A program made the translations under genes and the position numbers. Under the pieces are notes generated by a model. That model saw only the letters and a program-made list of their open reading frames with translations, ran no database searches and had not been told where the DNA came from. Shown one piece after another: positions 50,705-61,739 of a DNA stretch of 64,000 bases. The stretch comes from Acidobacteriota bacterium (lineage in GTDB: Bacteria; Acidobacteriota; Terriglobia; Acidiferrales; UBA7541): the NCBI GenBank assembly GCA_003223245.1, contig QHYI01000144.1, forward strand, positions 1-64,000, read 5' to 3'. Positions within the stretch are counted from its first letter, which is position 1. The number at the start of each line of letters is the position of its first letter.

Positions 50705-53700
50705 CTACTCGATCGTGACGGTCACGGTCGTATTTTGCGTTGTGCCTGAGACAGAATTTGCTGTGAACGAGCCTGTGACGGTGAACGTATAGGTCCCGGA
50801 TGTCGTACCGAGAATCGGAGGGGGGCCGCTATTGGCGTTACCCCCGCCACAGGCGGCCACGCCACCAAGCACGGCAAGAAGGAATAGGAAAACGAAACTC
50901 GCCAAGCGCCACCGGCGATGACCTTGGCCGCGAATTCCGAAAAGCAACAAAGCTGCCAGCGCGATTCCCGCCGAGCTAGCAAGCCAACCGGGCATTTCCC
51001 GCAGCCAACCGCCTGGCAAGGGCCCGCCGGGGAATGGAGGAACGAATCGAGCAGCGCCAGGCGCAGTGGAGTTGATGGTCAGGGTGGCCGTGACTGCAGC
51101 CGTACCTGGAATGGTGACCGGAGACTGCATGCTACATGTTGGAGGATCGACGGCTCCGGGCGGGGAAGAAGTGAGCGCGCACGACAGATAGACCTTGCCG
51201 GTAAAGCCATTCACCGGCGTGACGGTGACCGCCGAAGTGTTCCCCGTGGTTGCACCGGGAGCGGAGATGGTCACCGGTCCTGCCCCCAGCGTGAAAGGAA
51301 ACGCGTCCATCACATTGAGCGTTACGGTGGCGGGCGCATAGACCGAGTCGCCTGAGTACTCTACCAGTACCGCAACATTGCCCACGTTGAAAAAGCTGCC
51401 GTCTAAAGTGAGGTTGGCGGAACCGTTTACCAACGCTGCTGACGCACAACACCAGCTGGCCCCAGGTCCAGAGGCAGAAATTCCCACGCTTCCGGTAGGC
51501 GTGGGCTGGCCGCTTGCTCCCGGGACTGTGGCGGTGATGACTCCCGTGCCGTCAATATTGATCCCTGGCGGATTGATGACCGCACTCAAGTTGGAAGGCT
51601 GCATCACTACGATGTTGACTGCCGAAGATGTCACCGTCAGATCATTGGCATCGCCGTTGTAAGTGGCCGTAACCGAATCCGTACCGAGCGGCAAGGTCGT
51701 TACGCTCAGCGTAGCTTGTCCTACATGCGGAGCTATCGGAAGAGGCGCCAGAGGGGCCGAGCCCAGCGCGGTACTTCCGAAGTTGAAAGTCACCGTGCCA
51801 GTCGGGGATGGGACGACTCTTGACACTGCGACTTGTGCCGTAAGTACGGTGGCAGAGCCGAGACCGATTGTTTTGGGCTTTCCGAAGAGGCTGATGTTGG
51901 GGGTTGCCTGAGTGATAGTAAACGAGATGGGCGTTGTGCTAGTGGACGCGTTGAAGCTGGCGTCGCCAGAGTAACCCGCGCCTACACTATGCGTCCCCGC
52001 GGGGAGGCCCGCTGACGGTATCCATTCCGCGAGGCCTTCGCTATTGAGATTTAGGCTCGGGGAACTGACGTTGCCAGCGCTCGCGGTGTCGCTAAAGACG
52101 ACACTTCCGGTGGGCACGCCGTCGAGCGCGCCTGCAGGAGCGCTCGCTCCGCGCGGCTGTGCGTCTAGAGCAATGAAAGTACCGTAAGGGAAGCTCGCGC
52201 CGTTGGTGATTGGTATGTACGTGTTGCTGATGGTTGGATTGAAGGCGTTTCCCGAAACCGAAACCGTGCTGTTTTCCGGAGCAACATTGAGTGTGACGGG
52301 ACTGGAAACGCTAGGTCCAAACACGGCGTCGCCAGCGTATCTCGCCGTTACTTGATACTGTCCCCCAGGAAAGTTGTTGGCCGTAGCCGACGCCGCGCCA
52401 TGCTGAAGAGTGAACTCGCCGAGGCCCTTGTTCAGGGAAGGGCTGGCCGCGGTAACCAGGGCGACATCCCCGGAAGGCGTCCCGCCACCCCCGGTCACCG
52501 AGACGGTTACGCCAATGGGCGTGCCGTGAGTAAAACTCGTCTGGCTTAGATTCAGGCTTGTATTCGTGGGCGTAAACGTCAGCGAGTTCCAGAACTTGAC
52601 CAGCAAATTCGCGTCGATACTCCCGAGGCCCGTTGCTTGATCGTATCCCCCCCTGGAATAAAACTGTCCTAGCGTAAAGAAACCCTGGGTGTTGTCTTTG
52701 AGCGTGCTCAGCGTGCACGAAGGAGAGTTTTGCTGGCAAGGCACATTGTTACTGCCGACGGTGATGTCGTGGAAAACCGTGGGCTGCTGTGCGGCCAAAG
52801 GATAGAGAACGAAATTGGCTTGGCCTTGCGCTCCAAACTTCTGATTCACGAGCGCCATAATGCCCGCCATCGCGGGCGACGAAGCCGACGTGCCGCCCAC
52901 AAGAATCAGGGACGTTCCTCCGTTCACCACCGTGCAATCCTCAGCAAACACGCAGATGGGGTAAGCGCTGTTGTTTTCTCCGGCAGCGGCGAAAAGAGAG
53001 ATGTCGGGGAGATCGCGCGCGCCGTCGGCGGGAACTCCCTTGCCGGTTTGCCATGAAGGTTTGGGATAACCTCCGGTGCAGGATGCGAAGGTTCCGTCGG
53101 AGGCGCTGACGCCCGTAACGCAGTTACTTCCACCGCCGCTGCCGGCCACGATCGTGGGAGGAGGCGGATTGTAAATGCCATTGTCGAAGAGATTCAGACC
53201 GAAAGGCCGGTTCCAAGGCTGTTCGGGAATGGGTTTGAGCAGCGAAGTCCCGGGAAGCTTTGCGGGCGTCAAGTTCCAGTAAGTGGCGAGTTCCGCGTTC
53301 TGCGAAGCCGCAGTACCCGCATAGCTCGAGTAGAAAAAATCCGTGCCTCCGACAGCCACGTTCCATGGCGTGGAAGAAAAACCGTTGATGGCCAGGCCGT
53401 GCTGGGCCGCTTGCTGCGCATTGAAGTCATCGCAGCCCGCTGGGCCGCCGTCGCCGCTGGACACAAAGGAGGTTTGTCCCTGTGCGGCAGCTTGCTCCCA
53501 GAGGCTGGCCCAAAACTGATTGCCCGCAGAACCCAAGTTCTGTTCGCAGATGCCGTAGCTGGTGCTCAAGACCGCTGCTTGATCGTCATCGACAGCACGC
53601 TCGGCGGCCAGAACTAAACCATCCTGGACCGTGGTGCTGGCGGCCGTATAAAGGTTGATCGTCGCGCCGGGAGCGACCGAGCCAGCTATTTCCACATCGA

Positions 53701-54661
53701 GATGAGCCTCGATAACAGCGCCGTTTTGACCCGGATCGCTGCCATCGATGATGACGTTGAGCGTACCCGCAGGCAACCCAAACAGAGAGCGATAGGCAGC
53801 CACCATTGTGGGATCTACATTCGAAGCGCTGATAATTCCAATTGTGACGCCGCTGCCATTGACGCCCGCACTATAAAGGGGGCCAAGGTCGTACTGCACA
53901 GCAAAGTCGCCGGGAGCGACAGCCAGTAGCGGTTGTGTGTTCAAGGTCCATTGAGGTGTAATCGTGCGCCTCCCAGCTTCGAACGAGGCCTTGCCTAGAA
54001 CCTTTGTGAAGGACTTTGCACGAAAGTCGTTCATCGGCGTAATGCCGGCGATTACCGGCGCGAGAGCGGCCGGAATCTGTGGGTCGCGGTCGTTAGCGTA
54101 GTGTTGTTCGCCGTCGACCAGATAGGAGTGTATTTCCGTGCCGAAGGCTTCGCGCACTTGTCCCGCTTTGCCTGAGAATTCAATGGCGGTCTTGCCTTTG
54201 GTGACGCGGGCAATAGAGAAGCCGTGCTTTTCTAACCATGCCGTGACGGTCGCAATTTCTGAGTTATCTGGTCCGTAGAGTTCGCCGAATCGTTCGGGAG
54301 TAAGCCATTTGTGATAGTTGGCGCGGCCCGGGGTGTGCGCCTCCTCGAGAAACTGGCGGAGCGCTGCCTCGCTCTCAAAGGGCCGCTCGAGCAGCAAGAA
54401 CATGCGTTGTACGGGAAAGGAGTCCGCAACGGGCCCTCGGTCATAGTCGGGCAGAGCAAGTGGGTGCACGTTGCCCTTCAAGGTGACGCGAACGCGTTCA
54501 TCGATTGGTTGAGTGATGCGGGAGGTTTGCCGAGTCTGCGCCCCAGCAAAGCTGCTAAATAAGTCCGCGACTATGACCAGCAAACACCAGCGCTGCGAGC
54601 GTCGAAACAATCTGCTCCCCATTCTTTGAATAGGAAACGTGCGGTGAAGGGCCCGTTTCAT
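50705..54661 (-). CDS. S53 (sedolisin/kumamolisin-type) protease with Ig-like repeats
   Basis: 1318 residues. Signal peptide ends at about SFAGAQT. Pro-domain (Pro-kuma_activ): HPLALPDYDRGPVADSFPVQ and LTPERFGELYGPDNSEIATV. Catalytic region: IEAHLDVEIAGSVAPGATIN with the Glu/Asp pair, SSGDGGPAGCDD with the oxyanion Asp, and GGTSASSPAMAGIMALVNQK with the catalytic Ser. About 500 residues of Ig-like/Big-type repeats follow (SFTHGTPIGVTVSVTGGGGT, GTVTFNFGSTALGSAPLAPL). Near the C-terminus come a helix (SSAGIALAALLLFGIRG), a second helix and a short tail. It would be a secreted or anchored acid peptidase that needs pro-domain removal. The lipoprotein-like AACGGGN near the end is not a signal peptide. 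Confidence 0.9.
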   Translation of the reverse strand: MKRALHRTFPIQRMGSRLFRRSQRWCLLVIVADLFSSFAGAQTRQTSRITQPIDERVRVTLKGNVHPLALPDYDRGPVADSFPVQRMFLLLERPFESEAALRQFLEEAHTPGRANYHKWLTPERFGELYGPDNSEIATVTAWLEKHGFSIARVTKGKTAIEFSGKAGQVREAFGTEIHSYLVDGEQHYANDRDPQIPAALAPVIAGITPMNDFRAKSFTKVLGKASFEAGRRTITPQWTLNTQPLLAVAPGDFAVQYDLGPLYSAGVNGSGVTIGIISASNVDPTMVAAYRSLFGLPAGTLNVIIDGSDPGQNGAVIEAHLDVEIAGSVAPGATINLYTAASTTVQDGLVLAAERAVDDDQAAVLSTSYGICEQNLGSAGNQFWASLWEQAAAQGQTSFVSSGDGGPAGCDDFNAQQAAQHGLAINGFSSTPWNVAVGGTDFFYSSYAGTAASQNAELATYWNLTPAKLPGTSLLKPIPEQPWNRPFGLNLFDNGIYNPPPPTIVAGSGGGSNCVTGVSASDGTFASCTGGYPKPSWQTGKGVPADGARDLPDISLFAAAGENNSAYPICVFAEDCTVVNGGTSLILVGGTSASSPAMAGIMALVNQKFGAQGQANFVLYPLAAQQPTVFHDITVGSNNVPCQQNSPSCTLSTLKDNTQGFFTLGQFYSRGGYDQATGLGSIDANLLVKFWNSLTFTPTNTSLNLSQTSFTHGTPIGVTVSVTGGGGTPSGDVALVTAASPSLNKGLGEFTLQHGAASATANNFPGGQYQVTARYAGDAVFGPSVSSPVTLNVAPENSTVSVSGNAFNPTISNTYIPITNGASFPYGTFIALDAQPRGASAPAGALDGVPTGSVVFSDTASAGNVSSPSLNLNSEGLAEWIPSAGLPAGTHSVGAGYSGDASFNASTSTTPISFTITQATPNISLFGKPKTIGLGSATVLTAQVAVSRVVPSPTGTVTFNFGSTALGSAPLAPLPIAPHVGQATLSVTTLPLGTDSVTATYNGDANDLTVTSSAVNIVVMQPSNLSAVINPPGINIDGTGVITATVPGASGQPTPTGSVGISASGPGASWCCASAALVNGSANLTLDGSFFNVGNVAVLVEYSGDSVYAPATVTLNVMDAFPFTLGAGPVTISAPGATTGNTSAVTVTPVNGFTGKVYLSCALTSSPPGAVDPPTCSMQSPVTIPGTAAVTATLTINSTAPGAARFVPPFPGGPLPGGWLREMPGWLASSAGIALAALLLFGIRGQGHRRWRLASFVFLFLLAVLGGVAACGGGNANSGPPPILGTTSGTYTFTVTGSFTANSVSGTTQNTTVTVTIE

Positions 54662-57266: not shown

Positions 57267-58856
57267 TCAGATGCGGCGCGGGGTGTTGGGGAAGTCGAGC
57301 CAGACTTTGACACCGCAGAAGTGCGAGCCTTCGGTGCAGATGGGCGTGGTGATGCCGGTGCGGAGATGGCAAGGCGGTCCGATGTAGCGCGCGAGTTCGG
57401 GATGAACTTCGCGGAGCTGCGCGATTTCGTCGATCGAAGCTTGAAAGATTTCTTCCTGGGCATTGAAGCAAGTGCGCATGGTCCATTTGTGGAGCAAATG
57501 GAGGAGTGAGCCGGATTCGTACAGGCGGATGGACTTGGCGTTAGGGAGAACGTAGAGAGCGATTTCCAGAGGGACGCCGCGGTCGAGAAGCTGATTTTTG
57601 GCGGACCAGGCGTCGTGCATGGCGCGGTCGTAGGTTTCTTTAGCGCGGGGATTCGCGGCAAGAAGCATGGGCGTGATGTAATCGGGCTCGCGGGTGTCGG
57701 CGAGGGTAAGCAGCGGACGCGAGCCGGGAACCATGCGGTGGCGCTGGTCCTGGCTGTCGGCGGTGTGGCTGATTTTTTTCGCAAAAGTGTAGTTGGCATG
57801 CTGGAGCGCGCGCATCATGGGCGCGTGGACAGTAACGTTGAGCGTTTCGAGGCGATAGAGATTGCGCGCGGGATTGAGCAGGCGATCGATGGCTTCGGCG
57901 TCGGAACATTCTGAAGCCGTGAGGCCGGCGACAGCGCGATAGGATTCTGCGATGATGCGCAGCGCATTGGGAGAATAGTCGACGAGACGGGAAGTTTTGC
58001 CATTGAGTTTAGCGTCAAATTCGCGAGCGAAGCATTCGCCCGCAGATGCGGCCGGCTGGGAATCTTTAAATTCGGGTAATTCTTCAAGCGGTTCCGTACC
58101 GAAGCGATCGAAAAACTGCGGATCGATCTTCTTGACTTCATCGACCATAGCGCCAATCACCGCGCGGGCCTCCGACGGCGTGTCGGAAGCGGAACTCATG
58201 CGCCAGAGGCGATGAAGGACGATGCCTGAGAGCGTGTGCACCATAGTGGTGAAAGCGGCGACGGGAAGAGCGTAACGGGCGATTTCGATAGCGCGCTTTT
58301 CGGCGGAGCGTTCGATTTTTTGCAGGCGCCTGGGATGCGACATGGGGCTCACGTGCCAGATGTCGTTAAGGATGTTGCGGGCGTCGCCGATCAAAAGCGC
58401 GGACAGTTCGCGGTAGTAATTCCAGGCGCGGGCGATGGCGCCTTCGTAGATTCCTTTGGATTTTTCGTCGAAGAAAAGCGAGACAGGCGGAACGTACGCT
58501 TGCGCGCGGTCGAGGCGAACGTAGCGCTGGCTCTGCTGTTCGGAATTGTAAAAGGGATGCGCGTGAAGGAAAGACCAGACGAATTGGCGGCTGACGTTTT
58601 CGAGGCCAAATTCGAAATGCGCGTGCTGGTAGACGGTGTGGTGGCCGCTGTAAAACGTGGCGGCGCCGATATTGAGGCGCTGCTTGTCGGTGATTTCTTC
58701 GGCGGTGATCAGGCGGGGCGCATAACAGGTGCGCGCAGCGGCAATAGCGGAATCGAAAGGGTGCGCGAAAGCGTTGCGGAGCGTGATGCGAGGCGGGGCG
58801 GATTCGACAAGTTCGCCGGGACGCGAGCTGTCAAACATGCGAGATTGGGTAGCCAC
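57267..58856 (-). CDS. Double-domain ThyX-like (FAD-dependent thymidylate synthase) protein
   Basis: 529 residues, about twice a canonical ThyX (about 230). Both halves have the ThyX fold. N-terminal half: ARTCYAPRLITAEEITDKQR, FYSGHHTVYQHAHFEFGLEN, VSRQFVWSFLHAHPFYNSEQ and QSQRYVRLDRAQ; here the RHR of the RHRxxS motif is AHP, but the S-x-R-Y part is kept. C-terminal half: RALQHANYTFAKKISHTADS, QDQRHRMVPGSRPLLTLADT (an RHR-x4-S), then LPNAKSIRLYESGSLLHLLH, KWTMRTCFNAQEEIFQASID. So the dUMP/FAD motif residues are divided between halves. It may make dTMP from dUMP with FAD and CH2-THF, or be a related flavoenzyme. No thyA is in the window. Confidence 0.8.
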   Translation of the reverse strand: MATQSRMFDSSRPGELVESAPPRITLRNAFAHPFDSAIAAARTCYAPRLITAEEITDKQRLNIGAATFYSGHHTVYQHAHFEFGLENVSRQFVWSFLHAHPFYNSEQQSQRYVRLDRAQAYVPPVSLFFDEKSKGIYEGAIARAWNYYRELSALLIGDARNILNDIWHVSPMSHPRRLQKIERSAEKRAIEIARYALPVAAFTTMVHTLSGIVLHRLWRMSSASDTPSEARAVIGAMVDEVKKIDPQFFDRFGTEPLEELPEFKDSQPAASAGECFAREFDAKLNGKTSRLVDYSPNALRIIAESYRAVAGLTASECSDAEAIDRLLNPARNLYRLETLNVTVHAPMMRALQHANYTFAKKISHTADSQDQRHRMVPGSRPLLTLADTREPDYITPMLLAANPRAKETYDRAMHDAWSAKNQLLDRGVPLEIALYVLPNAKSIRLYESGSLLHLLHKWTMRTCFNAQEEIFQASIDEIAQLREVHPELARYIGPPCHLRTGITTPICTEGSHFCGVKVWLDFPNTPRRI

Positions 58857-59444: not shown

Positions 59445-59960
59445 TCAGCTTCGAATCCAACAAGCTTTGACGAGCATTTCCTTCGCAACGTCGGTCAGGG
59501 AGCGGTTTTCGTTGATGACGGTGAAGTCTTCCAATCGCGCCTCATCAAGAATGGCGTTCAATTTGGCGGCGCGAGTAACGTACTGCTGCCGCAACAGACC
59601 TGATTCGCGCGTACGAATGCGCTGCTCCATTAGTTCTAGGCTCGCGGTAAGACGGCAAACGAGGGTATTTTGGGCTGCCACAATGCTCTGGCAGAGCTCT
59701 AGTTCGGCGCGGTCTTCTATGGCCCGCGCCAGTAGGAGTCGCCTCGCTACGGCGGAATCATAATTGCCGCAGACCGACTGAAGATTGCGGTACATCAGGC
59801 CATCGTTGCCGCTTGGGGAGCGAAGATAGGCTAGCCCCAACCCGTCCAAATCAATCGCCGCATGGGGGATGTGTCGCATTGTCAAGATGTCCGACGCTTC
59901 GGCAAGGACGCTCGTCTTGCCTGCTCCCATGGTGCCGGTGATGACCAGGAGAAATTCCGT
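59445..59960 (-). CDS. P-loop NTPase (adenylate-kinase/gluconate-kinase-like), unusual start
   Basis: At least 161 residues. Walker A is complete only if translation begins upstream of the ATG at 59930: the frame reads ITEFLLVITGTMGAGKTSVL, where GTMGAGKT is the P-loop. Upstream of the P-loop there is no ATG, GTG or TTG before a stop; AAAGGGAG lies just before CTA-ATC-ACG, so an ATC, ACG or CTG start is possible. The rest resembles small AAA-type kinases: AAIDLDGLGLAYLRS, RLLLARAIEDRAELELCQSI, VAAQNTLVCRLTASLELMEQ, RLEDFTVINENRSLTDVAKE. Substrate unknown. Confidence 0.6.
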   Translation of the reverse strand, partial: TEFLLVITGTMGAGKTSVLAEASDILTMRHIPHAAIDLDGLGLAYLRSPSGNDGLMYRNLQSVCGNYDSAVARRLLLARAIEDRAELELCQSIVAAQNTLVCRLTASLELMEQRIRTRESGLLRQQYVTRAAKLNAILDEARLEDFTVINENRSLTDVAKEMLVKACWIRS

Positions 59961-59984
59961 GATTAGCTCCCTTTCTAGTGCATG

Positions 59985-60491
59985 CTATTCTTTCTGAAAG
60001 TGCCATCGGGTGACGGCGTTGGCGAAATTTTCTGCATGCTCGTCTTGGGCGAAAGCGACTTGAGGCTGGACGCGAAAGACGCAGCCACCCGCGGCCGTCA
60101 GAAGAGGTTCGACATCACCGCCGTATTTTTGATTGTAAATTTTGGCCAGCTGCTTCCAAACGGCGCGGTCGGTGATTTCTTCCGCGGCGCCTTCGAGGAT
60201 TACGGCTTCGTCGGCTTTGTCCGTTCCGATGACGACACGCGGCATGGCTGCGATGTTTTTCGCTTTGCGCGTGCGGGGGCCGGTGCTGAACCAGAAGGCA
60301 TCCTGCCACCAGATGCCCCAAACGATCATAAGATGCGGGCGGCGATCGGGCCGTGTGGTCGAAATCCAATAGTTGTGGGATTGTTCGAGACGCTCGAGGG
60401 CCCAAGACCAGGGTTTCAGGCTTGAGGTGTCTTCCGGCGGTTTTGCGAGGGCGTCAGGCCAGTGGGGCCGACTGGCCGTTGGTTCGAGCAT
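59985..60491 (-). CDS. Pyridoxamine 5'-phosphate oxidase-fold protein
   Basis: 168 residues from ATG 60491 with AAAGGA nine bases upstream. The split-barrel flavin-binding pattern is visible: WALERLEQSHNYWISTTRPD, RPHLMIVWGIWWQDAFWFST, GPRTRKAKNIAAMPRVVIGT, DEAVILEGAAEEITD and FRVQPQVAFAQDEHAENFAN. It belongs to the PNPOx/F420-FMN-binding family seen in acidobacteria and actinobacteria. It would bind FMN, haem or F420 and reduce an unknown substrate. No specific PdxH catalytic residues were seen. Confidence 0.82.
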   Translation of the reverse strand: MLEPTASRPHWPDALAKPPEDTSSLKPWSWALERLEQSHNYWISTTRPDRRPHLMIVWGIWWQDAFWFSTGPRTRKAKNIAAMPRVVIGTDKADEAVILEGAAEEITDRAVWKQLAKIYNQKYGGDVEPLLTAAGGCVFRVQPQVAFAQDEHAENFANAVTRWHFQKE

Positions 60492-60514
60492 GGTGAGTCC
60501 TTTCGGCGAGAAAA

Positions 60515-61078
60515 TCACGAAACGAAAGAGCAGCCGACGCGCGTGCCGCCTTGCGGCGTCTGCTGCTTCCAGACCAGTTTGAGGTTGACGCGAACGGGAG
60601 GAAGAATCGGGACGTGCAAGACGGCAAAGAGATTTTCCGGAAGCTCCTCCTGCGAATCAAGTTCAATAGCGACGCCGCCGAAACCCAGGTCAAGAACGCG
60701 GGCACGTTTCGCGCCTTGCTCCCCGATTACGGCGTAGGCGTTTGTGCCGGCCATCGATACGCGCTCGGCTTTGCGCTGCACCGCGAACATGCGAGGAGGA
60801 GCGGGCATGACTTCCGCAGCGGCTGGGACCGCGCTTATGGAAGCGCGAGCTTCGGGATGGTTCTCGGGCTCTTCCGGAGCGCGCTTGGTCTCAATGGAAA
60901 TCGGGGAAGGGGGAGCAGGCCGTTGCTCGGGGCTAGGAGAAGGAGGTGCGGTTTCGGCGGTGACGGGGGTCGCAATCCGGTTGGCGCCATTGACGGTTTT
61001 CCTGTGGTTATCGTGCTTTTGGCGGTAGAGCCGCTCGTCGGCAATCCGAATGAGCTGATCGGCCTGATCGGAATCCGA
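60515..61078 (-). pseudogene. PilZ part of a frameshifted diguanylate cyclase-PilZ gene
   Basis: The frame from about 61078 reads SDSDQADQLIRIADERLYRQ and KHDNHRKTVNG, the end of a GGDEF domain, followed by a proline-rich linker (PPSPSPEQRPAPPSPI) and a PilZ-like domain with RKAERVSMAGTNAYAVIGEQ, KRARVLDLGFGGVAIELDSQ, EELPENLFAVLHVPI and TRVGCSFVS. The (D/N)xSxxG box is represented by DLGFGG, lacking the Ser. No start codon with a ribosome binding site belongs to this part. It was originally the C-terminal half of the gene starting at 61739. Confidence 0.7.
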
Positions 61079-61739
61079 GCATCTCCTCAAAGACAGATTC
61101 GACGCGGCGGCTGAGTGCGAGAGCTTGCTGCGAATCTGTCTGCGGCAACAGCAGAGCGAACTCGTCGCCTCCAATGCGAAAGGCCGAGTCTGAGGTGCGC
61201 AAGGCCTTTTTTAGAGTAGCGGCAGCAACCCGCAAAACTTCATCACCGCGCGGGTGGCCGTGCTTGTCGTTGACTTCCTTGAAGCGATGCAGATCCAATA
61301 TCACCAAGCTGAGCGGGTGCGTGTAGCGGCGAGCGCGATTCAATTCCTTCTCGAAAGACTCCGCAAAAAGCCTGCGGTTGTAGAGTCCCGTCAACGGATC
61401 AGTGACGGCATTCAATTCGAGTTTTTTGAAGTCCTCGTACTCCATGATAATCGGAACGCGCAGGAAGCCGGAGGAAGCGAGCACATCCAGGAGGGCCGCT
61501 TTCAGAACAACCTGGCGGCCCGATTGGTCGGTCAGGTTGCGACGACGCACGAGCATCTCGTCCCAGACCTGGACACACTGCGACTCCGGCAACTCCACGT
61601 GACAGATTGCGCGGAGGAAGCGCTGGAGGAACTGGCCACGTGCGGGCAGGTCGAGGCTCTCGAGCGTATCCGCAAGCATCTCGAGGTAAGTGTCCTCGAC
61701 TGGCAAACGCGGGGGCACGGGGCTACCGGGGCTGGGCAT
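61008..61739 (-). CDS. Diguanylate cyclase, N-terminal and GGDEF part of a frameshifted gene
   Basis: Up to 243 residues. An N-terminal helical region of about 100 residues (LEMLADTLESLDLPARGQFL, VWDEMLVRRRNLTDQSGR) is followed by the GGDEF domain: DPLTGLYNRRLFAESFEKEL, ILDLHRFKEVNDKHGHPRGD, VLRVAAATLKKALRTSDSAF and RIGGDEFALLLPQ. GGDEF is intact, and no RxxD inhibitory site was noted upstream of it. After FEEML the frame diverges into unrelated residues. The matching frame resumes with SDSDQADQLIRIADERLYRQ but lacks about 20 residues that normally contain the Ser/Gly strand (xSxGxA) of the cyclase core. A deletion with loss of frame near 61080 is therefore indicated, so cyclase activity is doubtful. 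Confidence 0.75.
   Translation of the reverse strand: MPSPGSPVPPRLPVEDTYLEMLADTLESLDLPARGQFLQRFLRAICHVELPESQCVQVWDEMLVRRRNLTDQSGRQVVLKAALLDVLASSGFLRVPIIMEYEDFKKLELNAVTDPLTGLYNRRLFAESFEKELNRARRYTHPLSLVILDLHRFKEVNDKHGHPRGDEVLRVAAATLKKALRTSDSAFRIGGDEFALLLPQTDSQQALALSRRVESVFEEMLGFRSGRSAHSDCRRAALPPKAR

Follow-up and report, generated by a model that had tools for sequence, protein, structure and literature searches.

Can a ThyX-type protein whose signature motif is divided between two fused domains serve as the thymidylate synthase of its cell? The question is raised by a minus-strand gene in an acidobacterial window, the window being the whole 64,000-nucleotide stretch of DNA that was analysed. 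Canonical ThyX carries the motif RHRxxSxNExSxRY. Residues of the single-domain enzyme are numbered here in what we take to be the T. maritima ThyX scheme.

Gene and predicted fold

The tandem ThyX gene occupies 57267..58856 (-), stop codon included, and encodes 529 aa. It has a GTG start with an in-frame ATG 6 codons downstream, and no clear ribosome-binding site was seen at the start. The whole protein matches the Pfam Thy1 family (PF02511) in 2 stretches at 9.5e-52 and 176 bits, against a curated cut-off of 24.8; taken one by one in the genome search, the Thy1 matches score 6.8e-28 and 7.6e-23. With TIGR02170 (thyX) the whole chain reaches 93.4 bits and narrowly passes the NCBIfam cut-off of 87.9. 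The N-half (58080..58808 (-), residues ~17-259) has a Thy1 match of 98.3 bits, and the C-half (57270..58013 (-), residues ~282-529) one of 81.8 bits.

A sequence error or pseudogene was ruled out by the open frame and by the same pattern in 54/54 relatives. A phage origin of the window gene was rejected on tblastn, in which phage matches have <60% identity and are mostly single-domain; a plasmid origin was rejected on the best plasmid record, that of Thermomicrobium roseum, at 39.6% over 95%. The T. roseum tandem ThyX, WP_012643046.1, is annotated by NCBI simply as FAD-dependent thymidylate synthase. No obvious nucleotide or folate gene adjoins thyX among the upstream minus-strand ORFs (59445-61739), which comprise a P-loop-like ORF with no Pfam match and PNPOx-type, PilZ and GGDEF ORFs. 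Elsewhere in the window, 50705-54661 (-) encodes a large protein with a pro-kumamolisin activation domain and Ig-like repeats, from a family that we take to be ordinary secreted peptidases in Acidobacteriota.

An AlphaFold2 model of the full chain (54 sequences) has pLDDT 86.4 and pTM 0.87. In VIA-align, the N-half (17-259) aligned with M. tuberculosis ThyX 3gwc_B (Z 14.8, rmsd 3.2, 210 aligned) and the C-half (286-529) with 2af6_E (Z 14.1, rmsd 2.1, 199 aligned) and T. maritima 1o26_C (Z 14.0, rmsd 2.6, 201 aligned). Foldseek agrees with VIA-align on the ThyX fold, which is predicted for both halves at Z ~14-15 each.

Motif residues in the two halves

A first-pass annotation had reported that the N-half keeps NSEQQSQRY with AHP in place of RHR, and that the C-half has QRHRMVPGSRP without NExSxRY. 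Both statements are confirmed on the sequence (residues 104-112 and 99-101 in the N-half; 371-381 in the C-half). In the N-half, A99-H100-P101 (58554..58562 (-)) stands in the place of RHR, with loss of the flavin/dUMP-side arginines. The active-site loop NSEQQSQRY (58521..58547 (-)) is kept, with S88, R90 and Y91 represented by S109, R111 and Y112; its E sits at the N85 position and the next Q at E86, as in the Mtb-type SQLSQRY. H72-H73-T74 lies at 58635..58643 (-), with H72 and H73 invariant in 54/54 relatives. By motif position H72 is likely the equivalent of H53, the flavin/folate-side histidine, and the H53 column is H in 27/27 A-type N-halves. R194 (58275..58277 (-)) is the R147 equivalent, and the C-half has L434 there. 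R78, R80 and R174 are absent from the N-half (A99, P101 and S221).

The C-half has Q369-D-Q-R372-H373-R374 (57735..57752 (-)), equivalent to Q75 and the RHR triad, and R461 (57474..57476 (-)), equivalent to R174, where the N-half has S221. Downstream of QDQRHR the sequence continues as MVPGSRPLLTL, so that L382, T384 and L385 stand where S88, R90 and Y91 are expected; R147 is likewise absent (L434). The catalytic set is complete only across both halves, with Q75, R78, H79, R80 and R174 in the C-half and S88, R90, Y91 and R147 in the N-half. E106, S109, R111, R194, Q369, R372, H373, R374 and R461 are invariant in 54/54 aligned group-A relatives, the group to which the window protein belongs, and the split motif is therefore not a chance feature. 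The window protein does not carry RHRxxSxNExSxRY contiguously in one segment, its N-half being without RHR and its C-half without SxRY, and it is for this reason classed within the ThyX family as a tandem variant with a split site.

Predicted composite active site

In an inhibitor structure of PBCV-1 ThyX, monomer A is described as supplying Gln-75 and the strictly conserved Arg-182, and monomer B as supplying Ser-88 and Gln-89 (PMC3498832). R174 of the T. maritima enzyme is described as activating dUMP (PMC8316439), and ThyX active sites as drawing on three monomers (PMC5954106, PMC11940539). PBCV-1 Arg-182 matches T. maritima R174 as the alignment reads. By motif position, RHR, three residues after Q75, would belong to chain A, and R90 and Y91, in the S88 loop, to chain B. 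R147 is probably on the same chain as the S88 loop, which we take to be its subunit attribution in UniProt.

The canonical site lies at a subunit interface, where one chain would give Q75, RHR and R174 and its neighbour the S88/R90/Y91 loop and R147. The split makes structural sense because two subunits contribute the two residue sets to one ThyX site. Since the site lies between two domains, a domain pair has two sites, each of which can be destroyed separately; one of them disappears when RHR/R174 is lost from one domain and the loop from the other. In the proposed mechanism, two ThyX domains would have been fused head to tail and then have degenerated in a complementary manner. The C-half and N-half together would form one complete predicted dUMP/FAD site, the reciprocal site (the RHR position of the N-half with the loop of the C-half) would be dead, and two tandem chains may mimic the tetramer with two sites instead of four. 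The suggestion in the first-pass annotation of a fused, subfunctionalised pair acting as a half-dimer is well supported in the sense of a pseudo-dimer, in that the halves keep the residues that two subunits supply to one site.

An active enzyme could also place its composite site between two polypeptides, with the fusion serving stoichiometry. ThyX sites use three monomers, and at least one contribution may accordingly be that of another chain; against this, the fusion is present in every tandem locus read and the single-chain pTM is 0.87, observations compatible with an intramolecular pair that do not amount to a test. We regard the between-chain site as a real but lesser possibility. Catalysis, FAD and dUMP binding, the placement of the site on one chain or two and the quaternary structure are what we infer under the preferred reading, a pseudo-dimer with one composite site.

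Conservation of the split in four groups

Four groups of tandem ThyX were read in the phylum: A, which includes the window protein, B, C and D. Their distances from each other are about equal to their distance from single ThyX. In the P0001 search, B and C were detected as weakly as single ThyX, and D loci were undetected at E 1e-3; A-type similarity to single-ThyX PDB chains is at the same weak level. Halves were cut from 67 proteins (27 of the 54 group-A proteins, taken as every second row, with 18 B, 8 C and 14 D), leaving out L048 (contig end), L063, L064 and L089 (intein), L085 and L088. The joint alignment of halves and single ThyX has 164 rows, and a local ThyX profile was built from 30 single ThyX.

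S88, R90 and R147 are kept in 67/67 N-halves, where the Y91 column is Y or F. RHR and R174 are kept in 67/67 C-halves of the four groups, and R147 in none (0/67). Of the tandem proteins, 64/67 show all four patterns of retention and loss; the 3/67 exceptions (L153, L180 and L069) deviate solely by a C-half Arg in the R90 column. In single ThyX, S88, R90, Y91, R147 and R174 occur in one chain in 30/30, with RHR in 25/30, KHR in 4 and KHQ in 1. The N-halves have lost the C-half set to different extents. The R80 column is kept in all B- and D-type N-halves (32/32), and 8 N-halves have R in the R78 column. An Arg is aligned at R174, with a one-residue gap beside it, in 33/40 B-, C- and D-type N-halves, so the loss of R174 is clear only in group A. 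The D-type N-halves are without H53 and have D instead (14/14), and the C- and D-type C-halves have D instead of Q at Q75.

These counts bear on the possibility that the protein amounts to one ThyX domain plus a decayed partner half and is catalytically weak or dead. Each half alone is indeed without part of the motif. A decayed half would not, however, retain S88, R90 and R147 in 67/67, and both kept sets are invariant in 54/54 relatives across several phyla. We consider decay of one half very improbable and retain the reading of two complementary halves.

Group A has a further feature. Its C-terminal segment carries C496-X10-C507-X6-C514 (57315..57371 (-)), found in group A only, with the consensus PPC..R......C.EG..FCG, which is missing in groups B-D. 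These three cysteines and C463 (57468-57470) are all invariant in 54/54 group-A tandem ThyX. The pLDDT over the segment is 54-61. C463, C496, C507 and C514 are possibly a metal site, zinc or iron-sulphur, close to R461.

Gene content and function

ThyA yields dihydrofolate and depends on DHFR, unlike ThyX, and genomes with thyX are described as often lacking folA (PMC9931769). A review table gives ThyX in 6/6 and ThyA in 0/6 Acidobacteria (PMC5954106), counts that agree with the gene content of the phylum found here. The first-pass annotation had made a separate canonical ThyA or ThyX in the genome part of the case against a thymidylate role. Profile searches of the window's genome (95.8% complete) detected no other ThyX, no ThyA and no DHFR, and a second thymidylate synthase of either type was rejected; the thymidylate role stands in this respect. 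The genome has a thymidine kinase, so salvage is possible.

Among 297 genomes of the phylum, 150 have two Thy1 matches, 59 have one, 70 have a full ThyA and 19 have none. Full ThyA occurs in 0/150 two-match genomes and clear DHFR in 2/150, against DHFR in 67/70 full-ThyA genomes (Fisher p 4e-50, a nominal value because the genomes are related). Clear DHFR is present in 12/59 one-match ThyX genomes. The cut-offs, set after the gap in the list had been seen, were E up to 6.6e-92 for full ThyA and E up to 8.4e-34 for clear DHFR. Below them lie weak ThyA-like matches in 8/150 two-match genomes and weak DHFR-like matches in G225, G051, G063, G125 and G285. The ORF was read in ~70 of the 150 two-match genomes. 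Four of the 150 are not tandem: the gene of G045 is single and lies at the end of a contig, those of G097 and G190 have inteins, and that of G125 is of a permuted phage type. Without these four, DHFR remains in 1/146 (G033). Genomes of group A were also screened for 50 of 80 loci, mostly from other phyla, and contain full-length ThyA in 0/50 and DHFR in 0/50; one of them, that of L184, has weak ThyA-like matches. By gene content, tandem ThyX replaces ThyA and DHFR is dispensable.

A different grouping was seen in 12/297 phylum genomes, which have no ThyX, no full ThyA and one weak PF00303 match of ~300 aa. Four such loci are L201, L202, L203 and L205 (in G037, G085, G122 and G282); DPPCLQSLW is present in three that were read. 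Clear DHFR is found in 0/12 of these genomes, and the ~300-aa proteins are perhaps a divergent thymidylate synthase. A further 7 phylum genomes have no ThyX, full ThyA or weak PF00303 match.

The first-pass annotation had also offered a flavoenzyme with another activity. Such a protein would be a Thy1-fold enzyme with another substrate, acting for example in UMP/dCMP methylation or hydroxymethylation, while thymidylate came from salvage or an unknown enzyme. One of the folds close to the N-half is that of the UMP/dUMP methylase PolB (Z 14.5), the genome has the thymidine kinase, and C. glutamicum ThyX is not required for thymidylate according to the title of 3ge9. On the other side, 150 phylum genomes and 50 others show mutual exclusion with ThyA together with DHFR loss, and the kept residues are those for dUMP and FAD. 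Another activity is therefore disfavoured by the gene content of this genome, the phylum and the 50 others, and we judge it improbable. By every indirect test the tandem protein behaves as ThyX. We think it likely that the gene encodes the ThyX-type thymidylate synthase of the cell, an asymmetric pseudo-dimer in which each chain has one composite site and the reciprocal site is dead.

Related proteins

The tandem protein resembles ThyX of T. maritima (TM0449), M. tuberculosis and PBCV-1 in the Thy1 domain and in the fold of both halves. Every motif element is present over the whole tandem chain, and like ThyX it replaces ThyA and occurs without DHFR. Unlike ThyX, it has two domains per chain, neither half could form a complete site, and one composite site would be expected per two domains rather than two; the window's group also has the extra C-terminal cysteine segment. 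Atypical C. glutamicum ThyX (3fnn/3ge9) and the PolB UMP/dUMP methylase (4p5a/b) share the ThyX fold with the tandem protein but are single-domain, and C. glutamicum ThyX has RHR and SQLSQRF in one chain. To judge from their PDB titles, the roles of these proteins are different or dispensable. No description of a tandem or split-motif ThyX was found in the open-access PMC literature.

Single-domain ThyX with inteins or insertions (L194, L195; G010 type L113) can also give two separate Thy1 matches per ORF. These proteins differ from the tandem form in having one domain, with the motif complete after the intein, and were removed from the tandem count. In L194 and L195 (G097 and G190), a likely HNH-bearing intein interrupts the ThyX motif after KHRI(A/G) and before SEFNEISGRY. 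The 882-aa product of L064:103-2748 (+) is a D-like tandem ThyX with an apparent intein at the H53 motif of the N-half, after YGHA and before SVAEHA. L088/L206 (G125 C1:7106000-7107500, minus strand) is ThyX-like and apparently circularly permuted, with the motif NTHRMFSRNASSSR; its GHWSPFEH segment follows the R174 region, where it normally precedes the RHR region.

Origin and spread

The architecture is widespread: when 84,980 species genomes were scanned, at least 560 relatives were found. Among 80 of these are members of Thermomicrobia, Myxococcota, Elusimicrobiota, Omnitrophota, Bdellovibrionales, Planctomycetota, Ignavibacteria, Sumerlaeota and others. Tandem ThyX is also present on three IMG/VR viral contigs (L198:5001-6377, L199:5001-6437 and L200:5001-6242), whose proteins show the same split and have the C-terminal cysteine segment.

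In trees of the halves, the order (A,(B,(C,D))) appears in the N-halves and again in the C-halves, whether or not the motif columns are included. One ancient fusion behind the groups is the simplest reading, and A may share it. Alternatively, the four groups might each derive from a duplication of their own, with convergence on one polarity. A tree that keeps the A-type halves as one group is not rejected (AU p 0.298), and the branch of all N-halves has a support of 60 in the 93-row tree and of 86 once the motif columns are removed, both of which leave room for separate duplications. They are opposed by the repeated (A,(B,(C,D))) order with motif columns left out and by the rejection of own-group pairing for B (p 0.00055) and C+D (p 0.017). 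Separate origins appear unlikely to us, and a single fusion is preferred.

The full history that we propose, in which we have about equal belief and doubt, is an ancient duplication-fusion followed by complementary loss, which left a pseudo-dimer that is obligate and asymmetric and has half as many sites. Much of Acidobacteriota, together with members of Chloroflexota/Thermomicrobiota, Myxococcota, Elusimicrobiota, Omnitrophota and others, would today have its descendants, in four very distant groups, as sole thymidylate synthase, and some phages would carry it. The C-half of group A would have gained a four-cysteine site, which may bind metal near the R174 region.

Significance

If the composite-site reading is right, many bacteria depend on tandem ThyX. 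Tandem ThyX also corrects annotation, as screens that rely on the ThyX motif would overlook or misinterpret it. ThyX is both a drug target and a textbook example of identical subunits sharing a site. The tandem form separates the two contributions on one chain and would give a handle on which residue plays which role, on whether four or two sites suffice and on crosstalk between sites. It would be a clean, datable case of a homo-oligomer becoming an obligate pseudo-hetero-oligomer by complementary loss.
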